Shown piece after piece: positions 18,191-30,438 of a DNA stretch of 64,000 bases (position 1 is the first letter of the stretch; each line of letters begins with the position of its first letter). A program made the translations under genes and the position numbers. The notes under the pieces were generated by a model. The model did not search any database. It was not told the origin of the DNA and was given only the letters and a program-made list of their open reading frames with translations. This DNA comes from Variovorax davisae. GTDB lineage: Bacteria > Pseudomonadota > Gammaproteobacteria > Burkholderiales > Burkholderiaceae_C. The stretch covers positions 186,001 through 250,000 of the forward strand of contig NZ_JASZYS010000007.1 in NCBI RefSeq assembly GCF_030316845.1, written 5' to 3'.

Positions 18191-18267
18191 CGGTGTGTGG
18201 CGCAGCCTGGTAGCGCACTTGCATGGGGTGCAAGGGGTCGAAGGTTCGAATCCTTTCACACCGACCA
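18191..18267 (+). tRNA. tRNA-Pro (anticodon GGG)
   Basis: A 77-nt cloverleaf can be folded by eye. The acceptor stem CGGTGTG pairs with CACACCG and is followed by encoded ACCA. The anticodon stem CTTGC/GCAAG encloses the loop ATGGGGT, giving anticodon GGG. The T-arm loop contains TTCGAAT. It reads CCC and CCU proline codons. It follows ihfA-merR, as in related genomes. Confidence 0.96.
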
Positions 18268-18281
18268 ATACGATCAAGGGG

Positions 18282-18854
18282 TTAGCTCTCGCAAGGGGCT
18301 GACCCCTTGTGCTTTTGGGCGCTGATCGCACGGCTCAGCCGCAGGTAGGTTCCGCTTGGCGAGTTCCCGAACAAGGGATCCGGGCACGCGGGTGCCGCCC
18401 GGGCCACGACATCCCAGTCCTGTTCATTCAGCAGGAGCCGCGCACGCGGGAGGACTTGTCTTTCCTCGGTGGCAATGTGGTGCCGGTAGTAGGCAAGGTA
18501 GAGCGCCGCCGTCGCTTCCACCGTCGCGCGCAGGACGTAGGCATCGCTGATGACGCCGTTGAGGTGGGCGACCAGTTCTTCTCCGGCCACCGCAATCACG
18601 CGGTGCTCCTGGAGCAGCCGGTTGATCGGCAGCCGCATCTGCGGATCGCGGGCCGCGAGCAAGGTGAAGGCCGCGTCTTCGCGCGGGTGATGAAAGCAAT
18701 CGCCGAACTCTCGCAGGTAGGAGACGATGTCGAGCATCAGGTGGTAGTCCGGATTGCCGCCGTCGTGGAAGCTGGCGACCTGTTCCTCCAGAATGCCCAG
18801 AAGCACGGAGAAGTTGGCATGCTCGGCATGCCATTGCGCGATCTGACTGGTCAT
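18282..18854 (-). CDS. Hemerythrin-domain protein
   Basis: The 190-residue cytoplasmic protein has the hemerythrin HHE four-helix pattern of iron ligands. Histidines occur in WHAEHANF (near residue 9), FHHPRED, LLQEHRVI and the C-terminal YRHHIATEERQVLP, with the E/D ligands spaced as expected. Such di-iron proteins bind O2 or NO and often act in oxygen or nitrosative-stress responses. GGAGA precedes ATG 18854. An FNR-like box (18918-18931) lies 64 nt upstream, pointing to induction at low oxygen. The end of the coding region overlaps the tRNA terminator hairpin. Confidence 0.88.
   Translation of the reverse strand: MTSQIAQWHAEHANFSVLLGILEEQVASFHDGGNPDYHLMLDIVSYLREFGDCFHHPREDAAFTLLAARDPQMRLPINRLLQEHRVIAVAGEELVAHLNGVISDAYVLRATVEATAALYLAYYRHHIATEERQVLPRARLLLNEQDWDVVARAAPACPDPLFGNSPSGTYLRLSRAISAQKHKGSAPCES
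18292..18316 (+). terminator. Terminator downstream of tRNA-Pro
   Basis: CAAGGGG/CCCCTTG form a 7-bp stem with a 4-nt loop (18292-18309), followed by TGCTTTT. Another copy of CAAGGGG at 18275-18281 could compete for the 3' arm. The hairpin overlaps the last codons of the convergent hemerythrin gene. Confidence 0.65.
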
Positions 18855-18917
18855 GATTTGTCTCCAGGGCCTGCCCAGACCCTGATGCCAGGCTACGCCG
18901 ATCGGCGGCCGGGTTCT

Positions 18918-18931
18918 TCGATCTGGATCAA
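18918..18931 (-). promoter_or_regulatory. FNR/ANR-like box before the hemerythrin gene
   Basis: On the minus strand the site reads TTGAT-CCAG-ATCGA, one mismatch from the FNR consensus TTGAT-n4-ATCAA. It is centred about 70 nt upstream of the start codon, which suits activation with a short 5' leader. The remaining gene-free DNA up to 19093 shows nothing recognisable. Confidence 0.65.
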
Positions 18932-19093
18932 GGCAGTTGCAAAGTCCCGAGCGGCGCATCGAGGCAGATCAAGAGGCGGCGGGGCGGTGCCCGGATGCCT
19001 CGCGCACGCTATCGCCGGTATCGCGCGAAGGAAGACCGGTGACGGTCGACTGGAACCGCTTCACACCGCTGGCCGGCCGATCCGGCCAAGGTG

Positions 19094-21640: not shown

Positions 21641-21670
21641 TTACTGACCAAAACTAGTATCAGTCAGTAA
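21641..21670. promoter_or_regulatory. Symmetric 30-bp operator at the head of the encapsulin operon
   Basis: TTACTGAC (21641-21648) and GTCAGTAA (21663-21670) are perfect 8-bp arms, and the exact centre is another palindrome, ACTAGT (21653-21658). The local sequence is AT-rich and could hold a promoter: TTGAAT at 21630 and TAGTAT at 21655, a rather long 19-nt spacer. A repressor site overlapping the -10 region is the simplest reading. The bound protein is not encoded next to it. Confidence 0.6.
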
Positions 21671-21689
21671 TCTTCGGTAAAGTCTATTT

Positions 21690-21944
21690 ATGCACCTCCT
21701 GCGACAACCAGGGAGGGACTACCAGGGCGGCACGCCGTTCTCTCGTTCGCCTGTCGTGCATGAATCTGCCTGCGCGGCGCCTCGCGGACTGCGGGATCGG
21801 TCCAGTGCCGCCGTGGCTGCTCCCAATGCCTTTTGCACCGATCCGGGCGACCTCGTCGCGCGGGCGTATGCGCTTCTCGAACAGGAGGCGCAAGCCTGGC
21901 AGCAACGACAGCGGGCCGACCTGTTGCCGGGGGGTGAATGTTGA
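21690..21944 (+). CDS. Possible small hypothetical protein overlapping the cyclase start
   Basis: An 84-residue frame begins MHLLRQPGRDYQGG and ends with a helical stretch DLVARAYALLEQEAQAWQQR. Its TGA overlaps the cyclase ATG by 7 nt, which would couple translation. The ribosome site is weak (GGTAAAG) and I recognise no family. It may be a real short coupling protein or just the leader of the cyclase mRNA. Confidence 0.4.
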   Translation: MHLLRQPGRDYQGGTPFSRSPVVHESACAAPRGLRDRSSAAVAAPNAFCTDPGDLVARAYALLEQEAQAWQQRQRADLLPGGEC

Positions 21945-24900
21945 TTTGCCCCTCGTGCGCTTTCGCCAATTCGGAGATTGCGCGCTTTTGCGGCGGCTGC
22001 GGGGTGCTGCTGGACTTCGCCGTCCAGCGCGCCGATGGCGAGCGGCGGCAGATCACGGTGCTCACTTGCGACGTCGTCGGGTCGACCGCGCTGTCGCAGA
22101 CGCTCGACCCCGAAGACCTGCATGAAATGCTGGGCGACTTCCAGCGGGTCTGCCAGGAGACGGCCGAACGGTACGACGGCTATATCTCCCAGTTCCTGGG
22201 CGATGGCGTCCAGATCTATTTCGGCTTCCCGCGGGCGCACGAGGACGATGCCCGGCGGGCCGTCAGCTGCGGCCTCGAAATCCTCCAGGGCACCGAACAG
22301 CTGAACCAGGCCTCGGCGCGGCCGTCGGGCGCCAGGCTGCGGATCCGGGTCGGCGCCGACACCGGGCGGGTCGTGGTCAGCCCGGTCGGAACCGGCGCCC
22401 GGCGCGAGAACATCGCGATGGGCGATGCGCCCAACATCGCATCGCGGGTGCAGGCGCTCGCGGAGCCCGACACCCTGTGGGTCACCGAAGCCACCTGGCG
22501 CATCGCCCACGAGCATTTCCAGGGCGAGCCGCGGGGCGAGTTCGAGCTCAAGGGCGTGGCTTCGGCGGTCCGCCTCTGGCGCGTCACTCGCGCCGGCGGC
22601 GTCGTCCCGGGGCTGGAGCGGGTCGACCTGCTGACCCTCTACGTCGGCCGCGGGCACGAGCATGCGCTGCTGGCGGCGCACTGGACGGCGGCCAGATCCG
22701 GTGCGGCGCGCTTCGTCACCGTGCGCGGCGAGCCGGGCATCGGAAAATCGCGGCTGGTCGCCGAGTTCAGGGGCCAGGTGGCGAGCGCGGACACCACGGT
22801 GCTCGCCGTGCGCTGCACCCAGTTCGCGAAGAACAGCGCGTTCCTGCCGGTCATCGAGCTGCTCGAACGCGTGCTGGGCCTGGCGGGCGCCACCGAGCCG
22901 GAGGAACGGCTCAGCCGCATCGACCAGCAACTGGCGGCGCTGGGCATCAGGGCCGCCGATGCGGCTCCGCTGCTGGCGGCGCTGCTGTCGATCCCGGTGG
23001 CCGAGCGCTATCCGGCCCTGGAGCTGTCGCCCACGCGCCGCCGCGTCCGAACGATCGAGACGCTGGTCGCCGTCATCGAGGCCATCGCATCGCGCCACCC
23101 GACCATCCTGGTGGCGGAGGATCTGCATTGGGCCGATCCGTCAACGCTCGAAGTGCTCGAACTGCTGGTGTCGCGCGCGCGCCGGCTGCCGCTGCTCGGC
23201 CTGTTCACGGCCCGGCCCGAGTTCGAGGCGGCATGGCCGGACGACGAGGCCACGCCCCTGGTCGATGTCTCGCGCCTCGACCATGCCGAGGTCGAGGCGG
23301 TCGTTCGCCATGTCGCCCACGGCAAGCCGGTGCCGGGCGACGTGATCCGCGAGATCACCCAGCGCTGCGACGGCGTGCCGCTGTTCATCGAGGAGGTGGC
23401 GCGGGCGGTGATCGAGGCCGGCGTGCTGCAGGAGAACGAGTATTCGTGGGCGCTCACGGGCGCGCTGCCCTCGGACCTGATCCCGGCCAGCGTCGACGCC
23501 TCGCTGATGGCGCGCATCGACCGGCTCGGCGAAGCGCGCGGCACCGCGCAGCTCGCGGCCACGATCGGGCGCGAGTTCACCTATGCCCAGCTGCGCGCGG
23601 TCAGCGAGCGCAGCGACAAGGACCTGGCGGACGATCTCCAGCGCATCCTGTCCGCCGGCCTGGCCTGGCAGGTGTCCACCGCCGCGCCCACCACCTTCGT
23701 CTTCAAGCACGCGCTGGTCCAGATGGCCGCCTACGAGTCGCTGCTGCGCTCGACGCGCCAGCGCTTCCACGAACGGATCGCGCGGGTGCTGCTGTCCGAT
23801 TTCGGCGGCGAGGTGGCGCTGCGGCCGGAGATCGTCGCGCGCCACTTGTCGGGTGCCGGCCATCACGCGGAAAGCAGCGACCACTGGTTCGCCGCCGGGC
23901 AGCGGGCCCTGACCCGCATGGCCGTTCCCGAGGCCCACGGACATTTCACGCGGGCCCTCGAAGGCCTGGCCAAGTTGCCGACCTCGGACGAGGTGCTGAC
24001 CAAGGAGCTGGAGCTCCAGATCGCGATCGCACCGACGCTGATGACGCTCTACGGCTGGGCCTCGCCCACGGTGGCGCTGGCGTGCGAGCGGGCCCGCAGC
24101 CTGAGCCATCTGCTGGAGCGGCCCGACCGGCTCTATGAGCCGATCTGGGGGCTGTGGACGAATCTCTTCGTCGGCGGCCAGCTCGACCGGGCGCTCGACA
24201 CGGCGAACGAGGCGCTGTCGATGGCGCTGGCCAGCGGCGTCCCGATGCTGGAGGTGACCGGCCGCCATGCGGTCGCCTACACGCACTACTACCGCGGCGA
24301 ATGGGCCGAGTGCATCGCGCATGCGCAGGCCGGCATCGCGCTCTACGCGCTGGAGCAGGAGCGCACGCTCACCAACACCTTCCAGATCAGCTCCACCGTC
24401 AACATGGTTGCCGGGCTGGCCAGCAGCCTGTGGATGATGGGCCACCAGGACCAGGGGCTGGCGGAACTCGACCACATGATCGCGATGGCGCGCGACCTGG
24501 ACCACCCGTCGGCATTGAGCAATGCGCTCGGCGTCGCCTGCTACATGCTGACTTTCCACCACGACCCGCAGCGCATGCTCGGCCATGCCTCGGAGGTCAA
24601 GAGCTTCGCCCGCGCGGAAGGGTGGGAGCTCTGGTATGCCGTCGGCGTCATGAGCAGCGGCTGGGCCCGCCTGCGGCTGGGCGACCGCAGCGACGGCCTG
24701 AGGGAACTGTTCGAGGGCGTGGCGCTGTTCCGGGCCACGCGCTCCGACCTGATGGGGCCGACGGTGGCCGTGATCCACGCCGAAGGCCTGCGCGCGGCCG
24801 GCCGCGACGAGGAGGCGCTCGAGATGCTCGCCGCCACGGCCGAGACGGCCCGGCGTGGCCACGTCGGCGTGCTGCTGCCGGACGTCTTCCGGCTGATGGG

Positions 24901-25156
24901 CGAGATCCACCTGCAGGCCGGCGCGCTGGCGCAGGCGGAGGCGGCCTTCGAGCAGGCCCTGGCGACGGCGCGGGCCCAGCAGGCCCTGTCGCTCGAACTG
25001 CGCGCCGCGATGTCGCGCCAGGCGCTGCTCGCGCGCACCGGCCGCGCGGCCGAGGGCATGGCGCTCGTCCGGCGCTGCTACGAGCGATTCAGCGACAGCT
25101 TCGATCAACCCGAGTTGCGCGCCGCCCGCGCGCTGCTCGAAGGCGGTGGGCGCTAG
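21938..25156 (+). CDS. Zinc-ribbon / class III nucleotidyl cyclase / AAA-type ATPase / TPR signalling protein
   Basis: The 1072-residue protein starts with a zinc ribbon (Cys4, Cys7, Cys18, Cys21). A class III cyclase domain follows, with metal aspartates Asp45 (TCDVVGST) and Asp89 (LGDGVQ) and the transition-state pair Asn166/Arg170 (NIASR), so it looks catalytically complete. A STAND-like ATPase domain has Walker A GEPGIGKSR near residue 266 and Walker B LVAEDLHWAD near 390. The C-terminal half (about 620-1060) is TPR-like helical repeats. Such proteins couple an unknown signal, sensed by the TPR array, to cAMP or cGMP production. A GGGGGGTG site precedes the ATG. The next gene starts 1 nt after the stop, making it the first large gene of the encapsulin operon. 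Confidence 0.88.
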   Translation: MLICPSCAFANSEIARFCGGCGVLLDFAVQRADGERRQITVLTCDVVGSTALSQTLDPEDLHEMLGDFQRVCQETAERYDGYISQFLGDGVQIYFGFPRAHEDDARRAVSCGLEILQGTEQLNQASARPSGARLRIRVGADTGRVVVSPVGTGARRENIAMGDAPNIASRVQALAEPDTLWVTEATWRIAHEHFQGEPRGEFELKGVASAVRLWRVTRAGGVVPGLERVDLLTLYVGRGHEHALLAAHWTAARSGAARFVTVRGEPGIGKSRLVAEFRGQVASADTTVLAVRCTQFAKNSAFLPVIELLERVLGLAGATEPEERLSRIDQQLAALGIRAADAAPLLAALLSIPVAERYPALELSPTRRRVRTIETLVAVIEAIASRHPTILVAEDLHWADPSTLEVLELLVSRARRLPLLGLFTARPEFEAAWPDDEATPLVDVSRLDHAEVEAVVRHVAHGKPVPGDVIREITQRCDGVPLFIEEVARAVIEAGVLQENEYSWALTGALPSDLIPASVDASLMARIDRLGEARGTAQLAATIGREFTYAQLRAVSERSDKDLADDLQRILSAGLAWQVSTAAPTTFVFKHALVQMAAYESLLRSTRQRFHERIARVLLSDFGGEVALRPEIVARHLSGAGHHAESSDHWFAAGQRALTRMAVPEAHGHFTRALEGLAKLPTSDEVLTKELELQIAIAPTLMTLYGWASPTVALACERARSLSHLLERPDRLYEPIWGLWTNLFVGGQLDRALDTANEALSMALASGVPMLEVTGRHAVAYTHYYRGEWAECIAHAQAGIALYALEQERTLTNTFQISSTVNMVAGLASSLWMMGHQDQGLAELDHMIAMARDLDHPSALSNALGVACYMLTFHHDPQRMLGHASEVKSFARAEGWELWYAVGVMSSGWARLRLGDRSDGLRELFEGVALFRATRSDLMGPTVAVIHAEGLRAAGRDEEALEMLAATAETARRGHVGVLLPDVFRLMGEIHLQAGALAQAEAAFEQALATARAQQALSLELRAAMSRQALLARTGRAAEGMALVRRCYERFSDSFDQPELRAARALLEGGGR

Positions 25157-25157
25157 G

Positions 25158-26060
25158 ATGAAGCCGGCCTCGGCCCCGGTGGCGTTCGACGCCTTGCGCC
25201 CGGAGGTGGAGGCCGGCACGCCGCTCGATGTCTGGTGGCAGGTCTCGCCCGCCCATCCGAGCCATCGGCTGGTCGTCGAGCGGCGCGTGAACGGGGTGCA
25301 GCGGCCCTCGGTGCGCGCCTGGCCCGATGGCCGCCATGCCGACGCCGGCGCCCAGTGCTTCCGGGCCCAGCTGCCGCCCTGCGCAGCCGGGGAGCGGGTG
25401 GACTACGCGCCGATCCTCTATCGGGCCGGACAGCTGGTGGCCGAACTCCCGGTCCGCAGCGTGCGCGGCGTGCCGGCCGCTGCCCCTGGCGGTGACGCGC
25501 TGCCAGCGCCGGTGCAGGCGCCGGGCACCGTTCCCCGCTACGACTGGGGCACGGACTTCCTAGGCGCCTTCACCGTCCAGCTGGCGAAGCCGCCGGAGTC
25601 CTTCGGTCCGGCGCCCGATGGGCTGCACATCACCTTCTACATCGCCTCGGGCGAGATCCACGGGCCGAAGATCAACGCCCGGATCCGCGGCGAGGGCGGC
25701 GACTGGATGCTGGTGCGCCGCGACGGCGTGGGCGTCGCCGACGTGCGCATCACCTACGAGACCGACGACGGCGCGCTGCTGCTGTCGCGCTACTACGGCA
25801 TCTTCGACCTCGGGCCGGACGGCTACGAGCGCGCGCTGCGCAACGACTACGACCCGCTGCCGCCGCTGGTGCTGGCGCCGCAGTTCGTCACCTCGCACCC
25901 CGACTGGCTGTGGCTGAACCGGCTGCAGTGCATCGCGGTCGGCCGGGTGACGATGGCCGATCTGCTGGTCCGGTTCGATCTTTACGCGATTCGGGTCGGG
26001 CAGCCGCTGCCGTCCTCGGGGCTGCCGCGCGCACCCGAAGGCGCCGGCGGCGCCTGCTGA
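25158..26060 (+). CDS. DUF3237-domain protein with an extra N-terminal domain
   Basis: The 300-residue protein has two parts. The C-terminal DUF3237 barrel (from about residue 133) shows FYIASGEIHGPKINARIRGE, then GGDWMLVRRDGVGVADVR and SHPDWLWLNRLQCIAVGR. The first 110 residues are a separate beta-rich region (PLDVWWQVSPAHPSHRLVVE) that I do not recognise, joined by a Pro/Ala linker. DUF3237 proteins form small barrels of unknown, possibly ligand-binding or isomerase-like function. The start lies 1 nt after the cyclase stop and the encapsulin gene follows after 40 nt, so it is an integral operon member. It might handle a product of the downstream fusion enzyme, which is speculation. Confidence 0.8.
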   Translation: MKPASAPVAFDALRPEVEAGTPLDVWWQVSPAHPSHRLVVERRVNGVQRPSVRAWPDGRHADAGAQCFRAQLPPCAAGERVDYAPILYRAGQLVAELPVRSVRGVPAAAPGGDALPAPVQAPGTVPRYDWGTDFLGAFTVQLAKPPESFGPAPDGLHITFYIASGEIHGPKINARIRGEGGDWMLVRRDGVGVADVRITYETDDGALLLSRYYGIFDLGPDGYERALRNDYDPLPPLVLAPQFVTSHPDWLWLNRLQCIAVGRVTMADLLVRFDLYAIRVGQPLPSSGLPRAPEGAGGAC

Positions 26061-26100
26061 GTGGAACGGGTTCTCGAGGGCAAACACACAAGGAGTTGAG

Positions 26101-27021
26101 ATGGCGGACAACAACCAGCAGGTTCCATGGACCGACGAGCAATGGGCGCGCGTGCGCAAGGTGATCCAGGAGGAGGCGGCACGGGCCCGGGTCGCGGCGG
26201 GTTTCCTGCCGCTGGTGGGGCCGTTGCCGGGGAACACCGACTATGTCACGGCCGACACCATCAGCTACGGCGAGGCCGGTGCTGCCAAGCTGCAGATCGA
26301 GGACAAGACCACGGTCCAGCTGCCGACGCTGCAGGTCCGCGTGTTCCTGCGCGGTGCGCAGATGGCGGACCCGGACATGGACAGCGCGCTGCAGCTGTTC
26401 CGGCGCGCGGCCAACATCCTGGCGCGGCTCGAGGACACCATCGTGTTCGGCGGCCTGGCCGGCGCGGGCAAGCTGCCGCCGAAGGCTTCGCCGGTAGCCC
26501 AGGTGCTCGGCGGCCAGGAGACCGACGGGCTGCTGCAGGCCCGTCCGCCGACAGAGGCCTATCTTGTCGGCCCGAAGACCGAGGAGAACCGGCTGGTGAC
26601 CGCCGTGTCGGCCTGCATCGGCGAGCTCGAGGGGGATGGCCATTTCGGGCCCTTCGCGGTCGCCTTCGGCCACGACTTCTTCACCGAGGTCCAGACGCCC
26701 GATCCAGGGTCGCTGGTGCTGCCGCAGGACCGGATCATTCCGTTTCTCGGCGGCGGACCGCTGGTGCGCACGTCGACGCTGCCGCCGGAGACCGGGGTGG
26801 TGGTGGCGCTGGGCGCGGAGCCGGTCGAGCTGGTGGTCGCCACCGACGTGTCGCTCAACTTCCTGCAGGTCACGGACGAGCCGCAGTTCGTCTTCCGGGT
26901 CTACGAGAAGATCCTGCTGCGCATCAAGGAGGCCAAGGCGGTCAAGGTGATCCGCGTCAAGGGCAGCAAGGATTTCGGACCCGGCAAGGTCGGTGAGACG
27001 GGGGCCGGTTCGGGCACATAG
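26101..27021 (+). CDS. Encapsulin shell protein (Linocin_M18/HK97-fold family)
   Basis: The 306-residue protein matches the encapsulin family along its length. It has an N-terminal amphipathic helix (WTDEQWARVRKVIQEEAARA), the E-loop region followed by VQLPTLQVRVFLRG, the spine helix RRAANILARLEDTIVFGG, and the P/A-domain end RIIPFLGGGPLVRTSTLP, then VVVALGAEPVELVVATDVSL and FVFRVYEKILLRIKE. Encapsulins self-assemble into icosahedral protein shells that enclose cargo enzymes. It has no cyclic-nucleotide-binding insert, so it is not family 2B by architecture; it is nearer family 1 in length. The last 20 residues are a Gly/Lys tail. AAGGAG precedes the ATG. The gene for the likely client enzyme starts 5 nt after the stop. 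Confidence 0.85.
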   Translation: MADNNQQVPWTDEQWARVRKVIQEEAARARVAAGFLPLVGPLPGNTDYVTADTISYGEAGAAKLQIEDKTTVQLPTLQVRVFLRGAQMADPDMDSALQLFRRAANILARLEDTIVFGGLAGAGKLPPKASPVAQVLGGQETDGLLQARPPTEAYLVGPKTEENRLVTAVSACIGELEGDGHFGPFAVAFGHDFFTEVQTPDPGSLVLPQDRIIPFLGGGPLVRTSTLPPETGVVVALGAEPVELVVATDVSLNFLQVTDEPQFVFRVYEKILLRIKEAKAVKVIRVKGSKDFGPGKVGETGAGSGT

Positions 27022-27026
27022 CGCAG

Positions 27027-29990
27027 ATGAAACCGCAAAGGGTCGTCATCCTCGGCGGTGGCGTGGCGGGCATGAGCGCCGCCCATGAGCTGATCGAGCG
27101 CGGCTTCGAGGTGGTCGTGCTCGAGCGCCGCGACATCGCGGGCGGCAAGGCGCGCAGCATCCCGGTGAGCGACAACGAGGACGGCGGCGCCGGCCACGAA
27201 CTGGCCGACCGCGGCGTCGCCGCCATCGAACACCAGCTGCCGGGCGAGCATGGCTTTCGCTTCTTCCCGGGCTTCTACAAGCACGTGGTCGACACCATGC
27301 GCCGCATCCCGTCCTTCGACGGCCGGCCGGTGGCGGACCATCTGGTGGCGACGACGCGGGTCGGCTTCACGCAGTACGACCAGCCGGCCTTCGAGGTGCC
27401 GGCGAACTTTCCGCAGACGCCCGGCGATGCCGGCACCGTGCTGCGCGACATCCTGCTCGCCTTCGGTCCCGTGACGGGTCTCACGCCCGACGACCTGGCC
27501 TTCTTCGGCTCCCGGATCTGGCAGATCCTGACCTCGTGCGAGCAGCGCCGGCTCGACGAGTACGAGAGCATCAGCTGGTGGGATTTCATCGGCGCCGACG
27601 GGCGCTCGGCGGCCTACCAGAAATTCCTCGGCGACGGCATCACGCGCTCGCTGGTGGCGGCCAAGGCGCGGCGGGCCAGCGCCCGCACCATCGGCGACAT
27701 CTTCGCGCAGCTGATGCTGACCATCGTCAACCCGACCGGCGGCTCGACCGACCGGGTGCTGGACGGCCCGACCAACCTGATCTGGATCGATCCCTGGCTG
27801 AGCTGGCTGCAGGCGCGCGGCGTGCAGTACCACTTCAATGCCGAGGTCGAGCAGATCCTGTGCGCCGGCGGCAAGGTGAGCGGCATCGTGGTGACGGAGC
27901 AGGGTGTGCGCACCGTCGTGCAAGGCGATCACTACATCGCCGCCGTGCCGCTCGAGCGCATGGCGGTGCTGGTGAACGACGACCTGCTGGCCGCCGACCC
28001 GTCGCTGGCCAACCTGCGCACGCTGGCGCCCAACGTCGAATGGATGAACGGCGTGCAGTACTACCTGTACCGCGACGTGCCCGAGGTGCACGGCCACGTG
28101 ATCCACATCGACTCCGAGTGGGCCTTGACCAGCATTTCGCAGTTTCCGTTCTGGCGCAGCGTGGTGCCGACCATGCTGGCCTGCGGCGACGTCAAGGACA
28201 TCATCTCGGTCGATGTCTCCGACTGGACCGCGCCCGGCCCGGACGGACGGCCGGCGATGCAGTGCTCGCGCGACGAGGTGGCCCGCGAGACCTGGCGGCA
28301 GCTCAAGCGCTCGCTCAACGCCACGCGGGAGATCCTGCGCGACGAGGACCTGCATTCCTGGTTTCTCGATTCCGACACCGCCCCCGATCCCACCCGTCCC
28401 GGCTTCCTCGCCAACGCCGAGCCGCTGCTGGTGAACCTGGTCAACACCTGGGCGCTGCGGCCCGAGGCGGCGACCGCCTTGCCGAACCTGTTCCTGGCGT
28501 CCGACTACGTGCGAACGCACACCGACCTGGCGACGATGGAAGGGGCCAACGAGGCGGCGCGGCGGGCGGTCAACGCACTGCTCGACGCCGCGGCGTTCGC
28601 CGGCCCGCGCTGCGAGGTCTGGCCGCTGCAGGAAGTCGAAGTGCTGACGCCCTGGCGCCTGCACGACGCGGCGCGCCACCGGGCCGGCCAGCCGTGGGAT
28701 GCCTCGCTGACCCAGGTGGCGCTGCAGGCCCTGCGCGCGGCGTCGCCGCTGCTCGACCAGGTGCGCCCGCTGATGGCGGCGATCAGCCCCTACGTGACGC
28801 CGGTGGCCGATGCGCTCGATGCGATGGACCAGGCGATCGACGGTGCCGGCACCGGGCTCGGTTCCGATCCCGCGGTGCGCCATGGTTCGGCCTACGTGCC
28901 GACGCCGCTCGACAACGTGCTGCGGGTCACCGACCGCGTGCCCGGCATCGGCGGCGTCACCGGGCCGGGCGGCTTCGTCGAGCGCATGGCGTGGTACCGC
29001 GGCATGGTCACCCAGACGCTGGAGTCCGGCGTGCCCGACTGGGAGCCGCAGACCCACCTGTATGCGCTGGTGAAGGACTTCATGTCGCGTTCGGGCAAGG
29101 GCTTGCGGCCGGCCCTGTGCCTGGCGACGACGCGCGCCCTGGGCGGTCAGGCCGAGCACGCGCTGCCCGCCGCGGCCGGCATCGAGATGCTGCACAACGC
29201 CTTCCTGGTCCACGACGACATCGAGGACGGCAGCGAGTTCCGGCGCGGCGTGCCCACCATGCACCGGCGCGCCGGCATCCCGCTGGCCGTGAACACCGGC
29301 GACGCGATGAATGCGCTGGCCATGCGGCTGGTGCGCCGCAGCGGGGAATTCCTCGGGCCGGCCGGCGCGCTGCGCATCCTCGACGAGATCGACCACATGC
29401 TGATGGAGACGCTCGAAGGCCAGGCGATGGAACTGGGCTGGGTGCGCGACAACGACCTCTCGGTCGGCACCGACGACTACCTGCGGCTGGCCTTGAAGAA
29501 GACGGCCTGGTACAGCTTCATCCATCCATTGCGCATCGGCGCGCTGGTGGCCGACCCCGAGGATCCGAACCTCGGCCGCTTCGACCGCTTCGGCTACCTG
29601 CTGGGCCTGGCCTTCCAGATCACGGACGACGTGCTCAACCTGAGCGGCGACGAAGCGCGCTACGGCAAGGAGATCGATGGCGACCTGTGGGAGGGCAAGC
29701 GCACCCTGGTGCTGACCCATGCGCTGGCCCACGCCGGCCGGGCCGAGCGCGACTGGATGAGCAACTTCCTGTCGCGTCCGCGCGAGCGCCGGCTGCCGCG
29801 CGAGGTGTTCCGCATGCACGACATCGTGGCGGGCACCGGGAGCATCGAATGGGCGCGGCAATCGGCGCTCGCGCTGGCGGAGGCGGCGGCCAAGGAGTTC
29901 GACCTGTCGGCCTTCGCCGGCGTGCCTCCCGGTCCGGACCTGGACTGGCTGCGGGCCAGCGTGGGCTACCTGGTGCAGCGGGATTCCTAA
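27027..29990 (+). CDS. Fusion of FAD-dependent oxidoreductase (phytoene desaturase/HpnE-like) and prenyl diphosphate synthase
   Basis: The 987-residue protein joins two enzymes. Residues 1 to about 520 are an amine-oxidase/phytoene-desaturase-type flavoprotein: dinucleotide motif VVILGGGVAGMSAAHEL (Gly10, Gly12, Gly15), then ERRDIAGGKARS, HGFRFFPGFYKHV, and the C-terminal FAD strand NLFLASDYVRT ... ATMEGANEA. Residues about 520-675 are a Pro/Ala-rich linker. The rest is a trans-prenyl synthase: GKGLRP near 690, first aspartate motif DDIED (730-734), second motif DDVLN (867-871, Asn in the last position as in some GGPP synthases), and KEIDGDLWEGKRTL. It could make a C20 or similar prenyl diphosphate and oxidise a derived isoprenoid. 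Directly downstream of the encapsulin gene (5 nt), it is the obvious cargo candidate. Confidence 0.88.
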   Translation: MKPQRVVILGGGVAGMSAAHELIERGFEVVVLERRDIAGGKARSIPVSDNEDGGAGHELADRGVAAIEHQLPGEHGFRFFPGFYKHVVDTMRRIPSFDGRPVADHLVATTRVGFTQYDQPAFEVPANFPQTPGDAGTVLRDILLAFGPVTGLTPDDLAFFGSRIWQILTSCEQRRLDEYESISWWDFIGADGRSAAYQKFLGDGITRSLVAAKARRASARTIGDIFAQLMLTIVNPTGGSTDRVLDGPTNLIWIDPWLSWLQARGVQYHFNAEVEQILCAGGKVSGIVVTEQGVRTVVQGDHYIAAVPLERMAVLVNDDLLAADPSLANLRTLAPNVEWMNGVQYYLYRDVPEVHGHVIHIDSEWALTSISQFPFWRSVVPTMLACGDVKDIISVDVSDWTAPGPDGRPAMQCSRDEVARETWRQLKRSLNATREILRDEDLHSWFLDSDTAPDPTRPGFLANAEPLLVNLVNTWALRPEAATALPNLFLASDYVRTHTDLATMEGANEAARRAVNALLDAAAFAGPRCEVWPLQEVEVLTPWRLHDAARHRAGQPWDASLTQVALQALRAASPLLDQVRPLMAAISPYVTPVADALDAMDQAIDGAGTGLGSDPAVRHGSAYVPTPLDNVLRVTDRVPGIGGVTGPGGFVERMAWYRGMVTQTLESGVPDWEPQTHLYALVKDFMSRSGKGLRPALCLATTRALGGQAEHALPAAAGIEMLHNAFLVHDDIEDGSEFRRGVPTMHRRAGIPLAVNTGDAMNALAMRLVRRSGEFLGPAGALRILDEIDHMLMETLEGQAMELGWVRDNDLSVGTDDYLRLALKKTAWYSFIHPLRIGALVADPEDPNLGRFDRFGYLLGLAFQITDDVLNLSGDEARYGKEIDGDLWEGKRTLVLTHALAHAGRAERDWMSNFLSRPRERRLPREVFRMHDIVAGTGSIEWARQSALALAEAAAKEFDLSAFAGVPPGPDLDWLRASVGYLVQRDS

Positions 29991-30099
29991 GGCGTCGGCG
30001 CGGCGCTCATTCCCGGCTCATTCTTGGCGCCTAGAGTGCGTGCAAGCCCTCCGTGGCGCCGCGTCGGCGTGCACGGGGCAGGGCCTGAAGGAGATTTGC

Positions 30100-30438
30100 A
30101 TGCATGCTTTGATCAAGGGTCTCGCCGTGGGCGTCTTCGGCGCCATGGCCTCGCTCGGTGCGCTCAGCGCCAACGCCCAATCGGATGGATCGGACTACCA
30201 CCCGCTGCAGATGAACTCGGCCGCCAGGCCGGAGGTCGACGCCGACGCGATCGCGGCGTCGCATGCATCGGGCACCGAGGCCATCGGCCAGTCGACCGCC
30301 GCGCCGATGGTGAATTCGCAGGGCGTGTCGCGCGAAGCGGTCTACCGTGAGGCCGTGGCCGCCTCGCACAACACCGGCACCGAGGCGATCGGCCAGTCGA
30401 CCGGCATGGCCGGCATCACCGGCGGCGTCCCGCACTGA
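30100..30438 (+). CDS. Small exported protein with a two-fold internal repeat
   Basis: The 112-residue protein has a signal peptide (MHALIKGLAVGVFGAMASLG ... SANAQS) and then two copies of a unit: IAASHASGTEAIGQST and VAASHNTGTEAIGQST, about 45 residues apart. It resembles the DUF4148-type periplasmic proteins that are abundant in Comamonadaceae and Burkholderiaceae, but I am not certain of the family. GAAGGAG precedes ATG 30100. It lies 109 nt after the fusion gene and probably has its own promoter. Function unknown. Confidence 0.75.
   Translation: MHALIKGLAVGVFGAMASLGALSANAQSDGSDYHPLQMNSAARPEVDADAIAASHASGTEAIGQSTAAPMVNSQGVSREAVYREAVAASHNTGTEAIGQSTGMAGITGGVPH

Follow-up and report, generated by a model that had tools for sequence, protein, structure and literature searches.

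We analyzed a stretch of 64,000 nucleotides (nt) of the Variovorax davisae genome (assembly GCF_030316845.1, contig NZ_JASZYS010000007.1, positions 186,001 to 250,000), here called the window, which carries an operon for an encapsulin shell protein and three potential partners. According to the list of open reading frames (ORFs) and the sequence, the four operon ORFs lie on the plus strand and are separated by gaps of 1, 40, and 5 nt. They encode a nucleotidyl cyclase/ATPase protein, a DUF3237 protein, the shell, and a flavin adenine dinucleotide (FAD) oxidoreductase fused to a prenyl diphosphate synthase, arranged in the window as follows.

21938 to 25156, plus strand: class III nucleotidyl cyclase/AAA_16 ATPase/TPR protein, 1,072 amino acids (aa), from ORF and Pfam
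25158 to 26060, plus strand: DUF3237 protein; the ATG start gives the 1-nt gap, and an alternative GTG start lies at 25146
26101 to 27021, plus strand: encapsulin shell protein, family 1 type, 306 aa, without a nucleotide-binding insert
27027 to 29990, plus strand: FAD-oxidoreductase/prenyl-diphosphate-synthase fusion, 987 aa
27027 to 28740, plus strand: FAD-oxidoreductase half of the fusion, residues 1 to 571, isoprenoid-desaturase/HpnE superfamily
28741 to 29054, plus strand: linker of the fusion, about residues 572 to 676, with no V.I[VIT] motif inside
29055 to 29990, plus strand: polyprenyl diphosphate synthase half of the fusion, first Asp-rich motif DDIED intact

In Pfam, the cyclase protein matched PF00211 (1.6e-19) and AAA_16 (1.1e-21), together with a weak TPR match. 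The DUF3237 protein matched its family at 4.6e-22, its ~140 N-terminal residues having no counterpart in Pfam, and its DUF3237 half matched the solved UPF0311 proteins 4pux, 3c5o, and 3g7g. The fusion combines Amino_oxidase (5.5e-21) and polyprenyl_synt (1.9e-61) in one ORF. The four-gene operon with its family labels and gaps, and the desaturase-type/prenyl-synthase fusion of 987 aa, had been proposed by an earlier reading of the DNA made without database searches (the sequence-only reading), and both are borne out by the ORFs and the Pfam matches, the TPR part weakly so.

Judged by its sequence, the window shell is a family 1 type encapsulin. It matched Linocin_M18 (PF04454) at 1.1e-22 with 81 bits, above the cut-off of 24.3, and the nearest solved shell is EncA of M. 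xanthus (E value of 7e-13), with an alignment covering residues 7 to 288. Its sole other Pfam match, to Phage_capsid_4, was weak and below cut-off, and none of the PHROG families matched it. Against the NCBI model encap_f1, the window shell scored 92 bits (cut-off, 100); two of the seven shells scanned passed this cut-off, both of the Ruegeria type described below (100.3 and 101.4), and two divergent shells scored about 60. Apart from encap_f1, no NCBIfam model reached an E value of 0.001 with the seven shells. The sequence-only reading had assigned an encapsulin fold to the 306-aa protein; the PF04454 match and the EncA alignment point to that fold, whereas the structure model, with a mean predicted local distance difference test (pLDDT) value of 42.6, is too poor to prove it. 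The model of the fusion is poor as well (mean pLDDT, 48.1), in both cases probably because there were only eight input sequences each. Foldseek with the shell model gave 50 listed rows, 48 titled encapsulin and 2 engineered nanocage, with TM-scores of 0.40 or less. The absence of a cyclic-nucleotide-binding insert from the shell, also part of that reading, agrees with the Pfam scan, in which the nucleotide-binding domain PF00027 was absent from all four operon proteins.

A related shell was found in 12 genomes including the window, from Variovorax, Ruegeria and its relatives, and uncultured proteobacteria. Near the shell gene, a synthase is encoded in all 12, an FAD enzyme in 11, a DUF3237 protein in 10, and a cyclase homolog in 10, the last count excluding L012 and L014 (L numbers are our labels for loci). 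L013 and L014 are contigs from metagenome-assembled genomes (MAGs) that end within the shell gene, with the DUF3237 side outside their sequence. Clade A consists of the window, V. ginsengisoli (L017), and Variovorax sp. J22R187 (L018), with cyclase, DUF3237, shell, and fusion genes; the latter two are the nearest named relatives at the operon locus, and their operons match the window at 84 to 98% per protein. In the Ruegeria type (THAF33, AD91A, 6PALISEP08, one uncultured isolate, and G1193, i.e., L009, L010, L019, L020, and L038), every gene is separate, and the order is cyclase, shell, DUF3237, FAD enzyme, and synthase. Clade B comprises Variovorax G765 (L028) and MAG RBC049 (L012, the same place as L021) and has the order DUF3237, shell, small protein, FAD enzyme, synthase, and then a protein of 662 to 696 aa; L028 additionally has a convergent cyclase gene. 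Among the remaining two loci, L013 carries a synthase and a convergent cyclase, and L014 has an FAD enzyme and a synthase near the shell.

This linkage of the four families is beyond chance. DUF3237 genes number one to three per genome (five genomes) and cyclase homologs four to six (four genomes), and by our own arithmetic any one gene is expected to have a cyclase gene within 10 kb in ~1.4% of cases (5 cyclases in 7.18 Mb); chance is therefore an unlikely explanation for a cyclase neighborhood that recurs in separate arrangements. The sequence-only reading had named co-occurrence of the four families in other genomes as a check, and the 12 shell genomes provide it, across Alpha- and Betaproteobacteria and in several gene orders. 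Sampling found the shell in 1 of 299 genomes from the family, in 4 of 101 from the genus, in 6 of 399 from the order (the window, L004, L005, and L006 belong to the set described here; L007 and L008 do not), in 2 of 398 from the phylum (the window plus L027, which is distant), and in 2 of 345 from the family of one Ruegeria genome. The 101 Variovorax genomes contain the FAD enzyme in six cases, including all four with the shell. A contig scan yielded seven loci; since it used one peptide pattern, it surely misses divergent members. In viral contigs, no relative of the shell was found among 43 pattern matches. Around the distant encapsulin loci L011, L015, L016, and L027 (3 to 19 kb), no operon partners were found, L015 being a weak control because tblastn at an E value of 0.001 missed even its shell. 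A shell tree with four distant encapsulins was not used, given its long branches and one row probably in the wrong frame.

The FAD half of the window fusion is 51% identical to the stand-alone Ruegeria enzyme, and in a tree of 18 rows the 11 shell-linked rows form one clade (support, 96/95), the seven shell-less rows being from Nocardia, Streptomyces, two haloarchaea, and three Variovorax. All eight stand-alone FAD enzymes at shell loci continue for 104 to 138 residues past the core and end in a short motif: RVIITQKG in the five of the Ruegeria type, RVEIIPN in L028, MVEIVPN in L012, and GVRIVPH in L014. The shell-less relatives that were measured (four of four) end 4 to 24 residues past the core and have no such motif. 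With the last 40 residues shuffled, the probability of V.I[VIT] within the last eight was 0.0008 to 0.010 for each enzyme tried (L020, L028, L012, L014, and L009). The layout of these tails suggests that of an encapsulin targeting peptide. No other protein of the window operon ends in V.I[VIT], and the shell-locus synthases whose ends were read have neither a targeting tail nor an N-terminal extension. In clade A, the linker to the synthase occupies the place of the C-terminal extension of the stand-alone enzymes; either the fusion has replaced docking, in which case an internal segment or the synthase half would mediate loading, or the clade A enzyme is not loaded.

The family 2 cargo motif GPTGLGT, as given in PMC8346489, was tried as a candidate in the linker and rejected: the window has GAGTGLGSD but J22R187 has SGAGLGDD, so that the motif is not conserved. 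Separately, three shell-less Variovorax FAD relatives (L048, 7758 to 10583; L049, 8496 to 11465; L050, 7709 to 10549; all minus strand) have an extra C-terminal part of ~350 aa. This part gave no Pfam match in the one relative scanned, and by eye it may resemble the carotenoid hydratase-like WYTEWWYF proteins.

The synthase is similar to geranylgeranyl and other short-chain synthases. Its best curated match in the window is f2_encap_cargo4 (199 bits; cut-off, 450), and its placement as a family 2 cargo type was rejected: for all four other shell-locus synthases compared, models of geranylgeranyl diphosphate (GGPP) synthase or of IdsA scored equally well or better by E value, in some cases by little. 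In the synthase tree, the outgroups were too distant for testing a single origin. For the FAD half, the best curated models are those of HpnE and the carotene desaturases. A true HpnE (327 bits) is encoded elsewhere in the same genome beside an SQS/PSY pair; the enzyme of the operon is therefore not the one for hopanoids. A shell-less locus of Streptomyces globisporus has an FAD relative (43%) next to a prenyl synthase, and the enzyme pair thus exists without a shell.

Starting from the gene content, the linkage across lineages, the shell-linked flavin clade, and the conserved tails, all of which are observed, we hypothesize that the operon encodes a family-1-type encapsulin nanocompartment for isoprenoid chemistry with the FAD enzyme as main cargo, a reading to which we give about an even chance. 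The shell protein would form a cage, with this flavin oxidoreductase, a member of the isoprenoid-desaturase superfamily, as its main cargo. As a separate protein, the FAD enzyme would dock by a flexible C-terminal extension ending in V-x-I-[VIT]; in the Variovorax clade of the window, where it is fused to the synthase, loading would take a route that has yet to be seen. A prenyl diphosphate chain delivered by the synthase would be oxidized or desaturated by the flavin enzyme, either at once or following another step. The shell could then confine a lipophilic or reactive intermediate, or a peroxide by-product, and the DUF3237 protein would bind the product or pass it on, with the cyclase/ATPase/TPR protein acting as a sensor or regulator. 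Particle formation, cargo loading, substrate, product, and regulation are thus what we infer from sequences.

Several observations weigh against this proposal. The pattern V.I[VIT] was defined after the tails had been seen, and the tails come from two FAD clades only; therefore, we regard them as a strong lead and not as proof. In the window itself, the pattern is absent from the whole fusion, which has no terminal tail either. No FAD gene was seen on the contig of L013, FAD relatives without a shell exist, and both structure models are poor. Further, the best curated models of the FAD half are matched far under their cut-offs (HpnE model TIGR03467: 87 bits; cut-off, 283). Alternatively, the genes may form one functional unit in which the enzymes work outside the shell, with the shell serving as a scaffold or holding other cargo, e.g., the DUF3237 protein, which is encoded at all 10 loci with that side covered. 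The missing targeting tail on the window fusion and on the synthases whose end was read would fit such an arrangement, but the restriction of the FAD C-terminal extension to shell loci (in the set measured) and the single clade of shell-linked FAD enzymes speak against it, and we consider it unlikely.

A real compartment with a non-isoprenoid task, in which the flavin enzyme has another substrate and the synthase feeds a lipid anchor or a quinone, appears similarly improbable. The low scores of the FAD half against the HpnE and carotene desaturase models are in its favor, as are the haloarchaeal FAD relatives, which have no prenyl synthase among their annotated adjoining genes. However, none of the 12 shell loci lacks the synthase, one clade has it fused to the FAD enzyme, and the curated models that score best with the FAD half describe isoprenoid enzymes. 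That the shell is instead a phage capsid remnant or a genomic-island passenger, in which case linkage would say little on function, seems to us very improbable. Such an origin would agree with the weak Phage_capsid_4 match and with the position of the operon in a tRNA-Pro-linked variable region; yet the shell matches no PHROG, none of the 43 viral-contig pattern matches encodes a relative, and Alpha- and Betaproteobacteria have the gene set in common, arranged in several different orders.

The cyclase protein is likely a sensor or regulator. Positions that we take to be catalytic are kept in its alignment to 2w01 and 3r5g. Against the TOMM system kinase/cyclase model TIGR03903, its residues 32 to 1026 scored 487 bits (cut-off, 706), and the alignment starts at model position 281, the operon cyclase being without that N-terminal part. 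In a tree of 10 operon rows and 8 of 16 paralogs, clade A, Ruegeria, and L028 plus L013 formed three well-supported separate groups, whose union was neither supported nor rejected (p value of the approximately unbiased test, 0.444). L012 has no close homolog of the operon cyclase and instead has a different cyclase/TPR gene. Each of three shell-less Variovorax FAD loci has a large neighbor matching the ATPase part of the cyclase protein; the only one scanned, in L048, is a kinase/AAA/GAF/cyclase protein. The signaling protein could thus be a component of the FAD pathway and not of the shell. Further, the sequence-only reading had seen in the operon a link between cyclic nucleotides and an isoprenoid compartment. 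A cyclase gene is indeed part of the operon, but PF00027 is missing, L012 has no close homolog, and each of the four genomes counted has four to six cyclases, so that the cyclic-nucleotide parallel to family 2B is weak.

Two features 5' of the operon concern its regulation and its genomic setting.

21641 to 21670, strand not assigned: imperfect palindrome, 15+15 nt, 80% complementary, 5' of the cyclase gene
18191 to 18267, plus strand: tRNA-Pro(ggg) gene (ARAGORN), left edge of the variable region holding the operon

The first base of the palindrome (21641) coincides with the start of the stretch singled out by the sequence-only reading; its right arm is nearly identical in L017 and L018, and its left arm is less well kept. 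It is possibly an operator of the operon. Homology to J22R187 ends at 18268 and restarts at the operon: the two operons occupy the same chromosomal site, from the tRNA-Pro gene to the same right flank, and the DNA between tRNA and operon differs. In Variovorax L089 (12140 to 12185), 46 nt identical to the 3' end of the tRNA lie ~0.9 kb from the shared right flank and look like an attachment-site repeat; four further Variovorax stretches of 15 kb showed neither this 46-nt copy nor any tRNA. The tRNA-Pro gene is probably an integration site, and the setting fits an integration hotspot and horizontal gain of the operon. A hemerythrin-domain protein (PF01814) is encoded 3 kb upstream of the operon (18282 to 18959, minus strand); hemerythrins are known as family 1 cargo, but this one is probably unrelated because its stretch of the window is not shared by L017 and L018. 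On the other side, 3' of the fusion (30040 to 30438, plus strand), lies a gene for a small protein with a secreted-looking start and two similar ASH.TGTEAIGQST segments, for which Pfam gave nothing above cut-off and at which homology to J22R187 breaks off.

Additional genes were observed at the other encapsulin loci. In clade B, the shell-FAD interval holds a small Ala/Lys-rich, helical-looking protein (L012, 9307 to 9804, minus strand, and the matching gap in L028); these small proteins have their position in common more than their sequence and could be a scaffold or minor cargo. A protein family not present in the window is encoded 3' of the synthase in L028 (4290 to 6278, minus strand), L012 (4157 to 6247, minus strand), L013 (9015 to 10412, minus strand), and L014 (3421 to 4212, plus strand), with a weak, under-cut-off match to acetoacetate decarboxylase (PF06314) in L028 and L013 and an N-terminal part in common with L014. 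L038 gave a weak match to this family as well (E value of 6e-5), in a short minus-strand stretch that follows its synthase. The distant encapsulin of L011 (7995 to 8918, plus strand), on a Nitrosospira plasmid, is flanked by genes annotated with an SpvB/TcaC N-terminal domain and a neuraminidase-like domain.

Known family 1 targeting signals have a GSL core, and the tails described here do not. Like the EncA, Linocin_M18/encap_f1 systems, the operon has a shell of that family of ~300 residues and, in the stand-alone relatives, a nearby enzyme with a C-terminal extension. As far as the consulted portion of PMC8346489 goes, the cargo types of family 1 are peroxidase, ferritin-like, and hemerythrin, and TVGSL is given as the targeting motif of one cargo; the cargo candidate here is instead an FAD oxidoreductase/prenyl synthase. 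That the operon represents a candidate cargo class outside those types, as the sequence-only reading had held, is consistent with Pfam, in which its proteins match none of the types in that portion. The cargo list there is open; therefore, the mismatch does not exclude family 1 membership. The same paper refers to 90 operons of family 1 that fit none of the known types of cargo. The operon type was not found described in the open-access encapsulin literature, searched by title and start of abstract. As far as these searches show, it is undescribed, with uncertain priority, since those 90 unassigned operons may include the Ruegeria type; most likely, judging from the sequences, it represents a new type of operon and of cargo among the family 1 encapsulins.

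In family 2, isoprenoid-related cargo (polyprenyl transferase) is reported for the shells in the same portion of PMC8346489, and the systems described here share with family 2B a prenyl synthase adjoining the shell gene and the idea of an isoprenoid compartment. They differ in that the shell belongs to another family and is without the nucleotide-binding domain, and in that the synthases have no N-terminal extension; the synthase resembles the family 2 cargo model only in an unspecific way. Our somewhat bolder and more tentative suggestion, which we think slightly less likely than its failure, is that a distinct family 1 lineage has turned into an isoprenoid-modifying compartment with a non-GSL docking peptide, with fusion replacing docking in one clade, and tied to a cyclase/STAND-type signaling protein. 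The parts of the Ruegeria operon are all separate genes, and the idea is therefore directly testable. If true, the family 1 toolkit would be enlarged by a flavin enzyme and perhaps also by a new docking peptide, and, going by what the consulted portion of PMC8346489 reports for family 2, two encapsulin lineages would have been drawn to the same isoprenoid chemistry.

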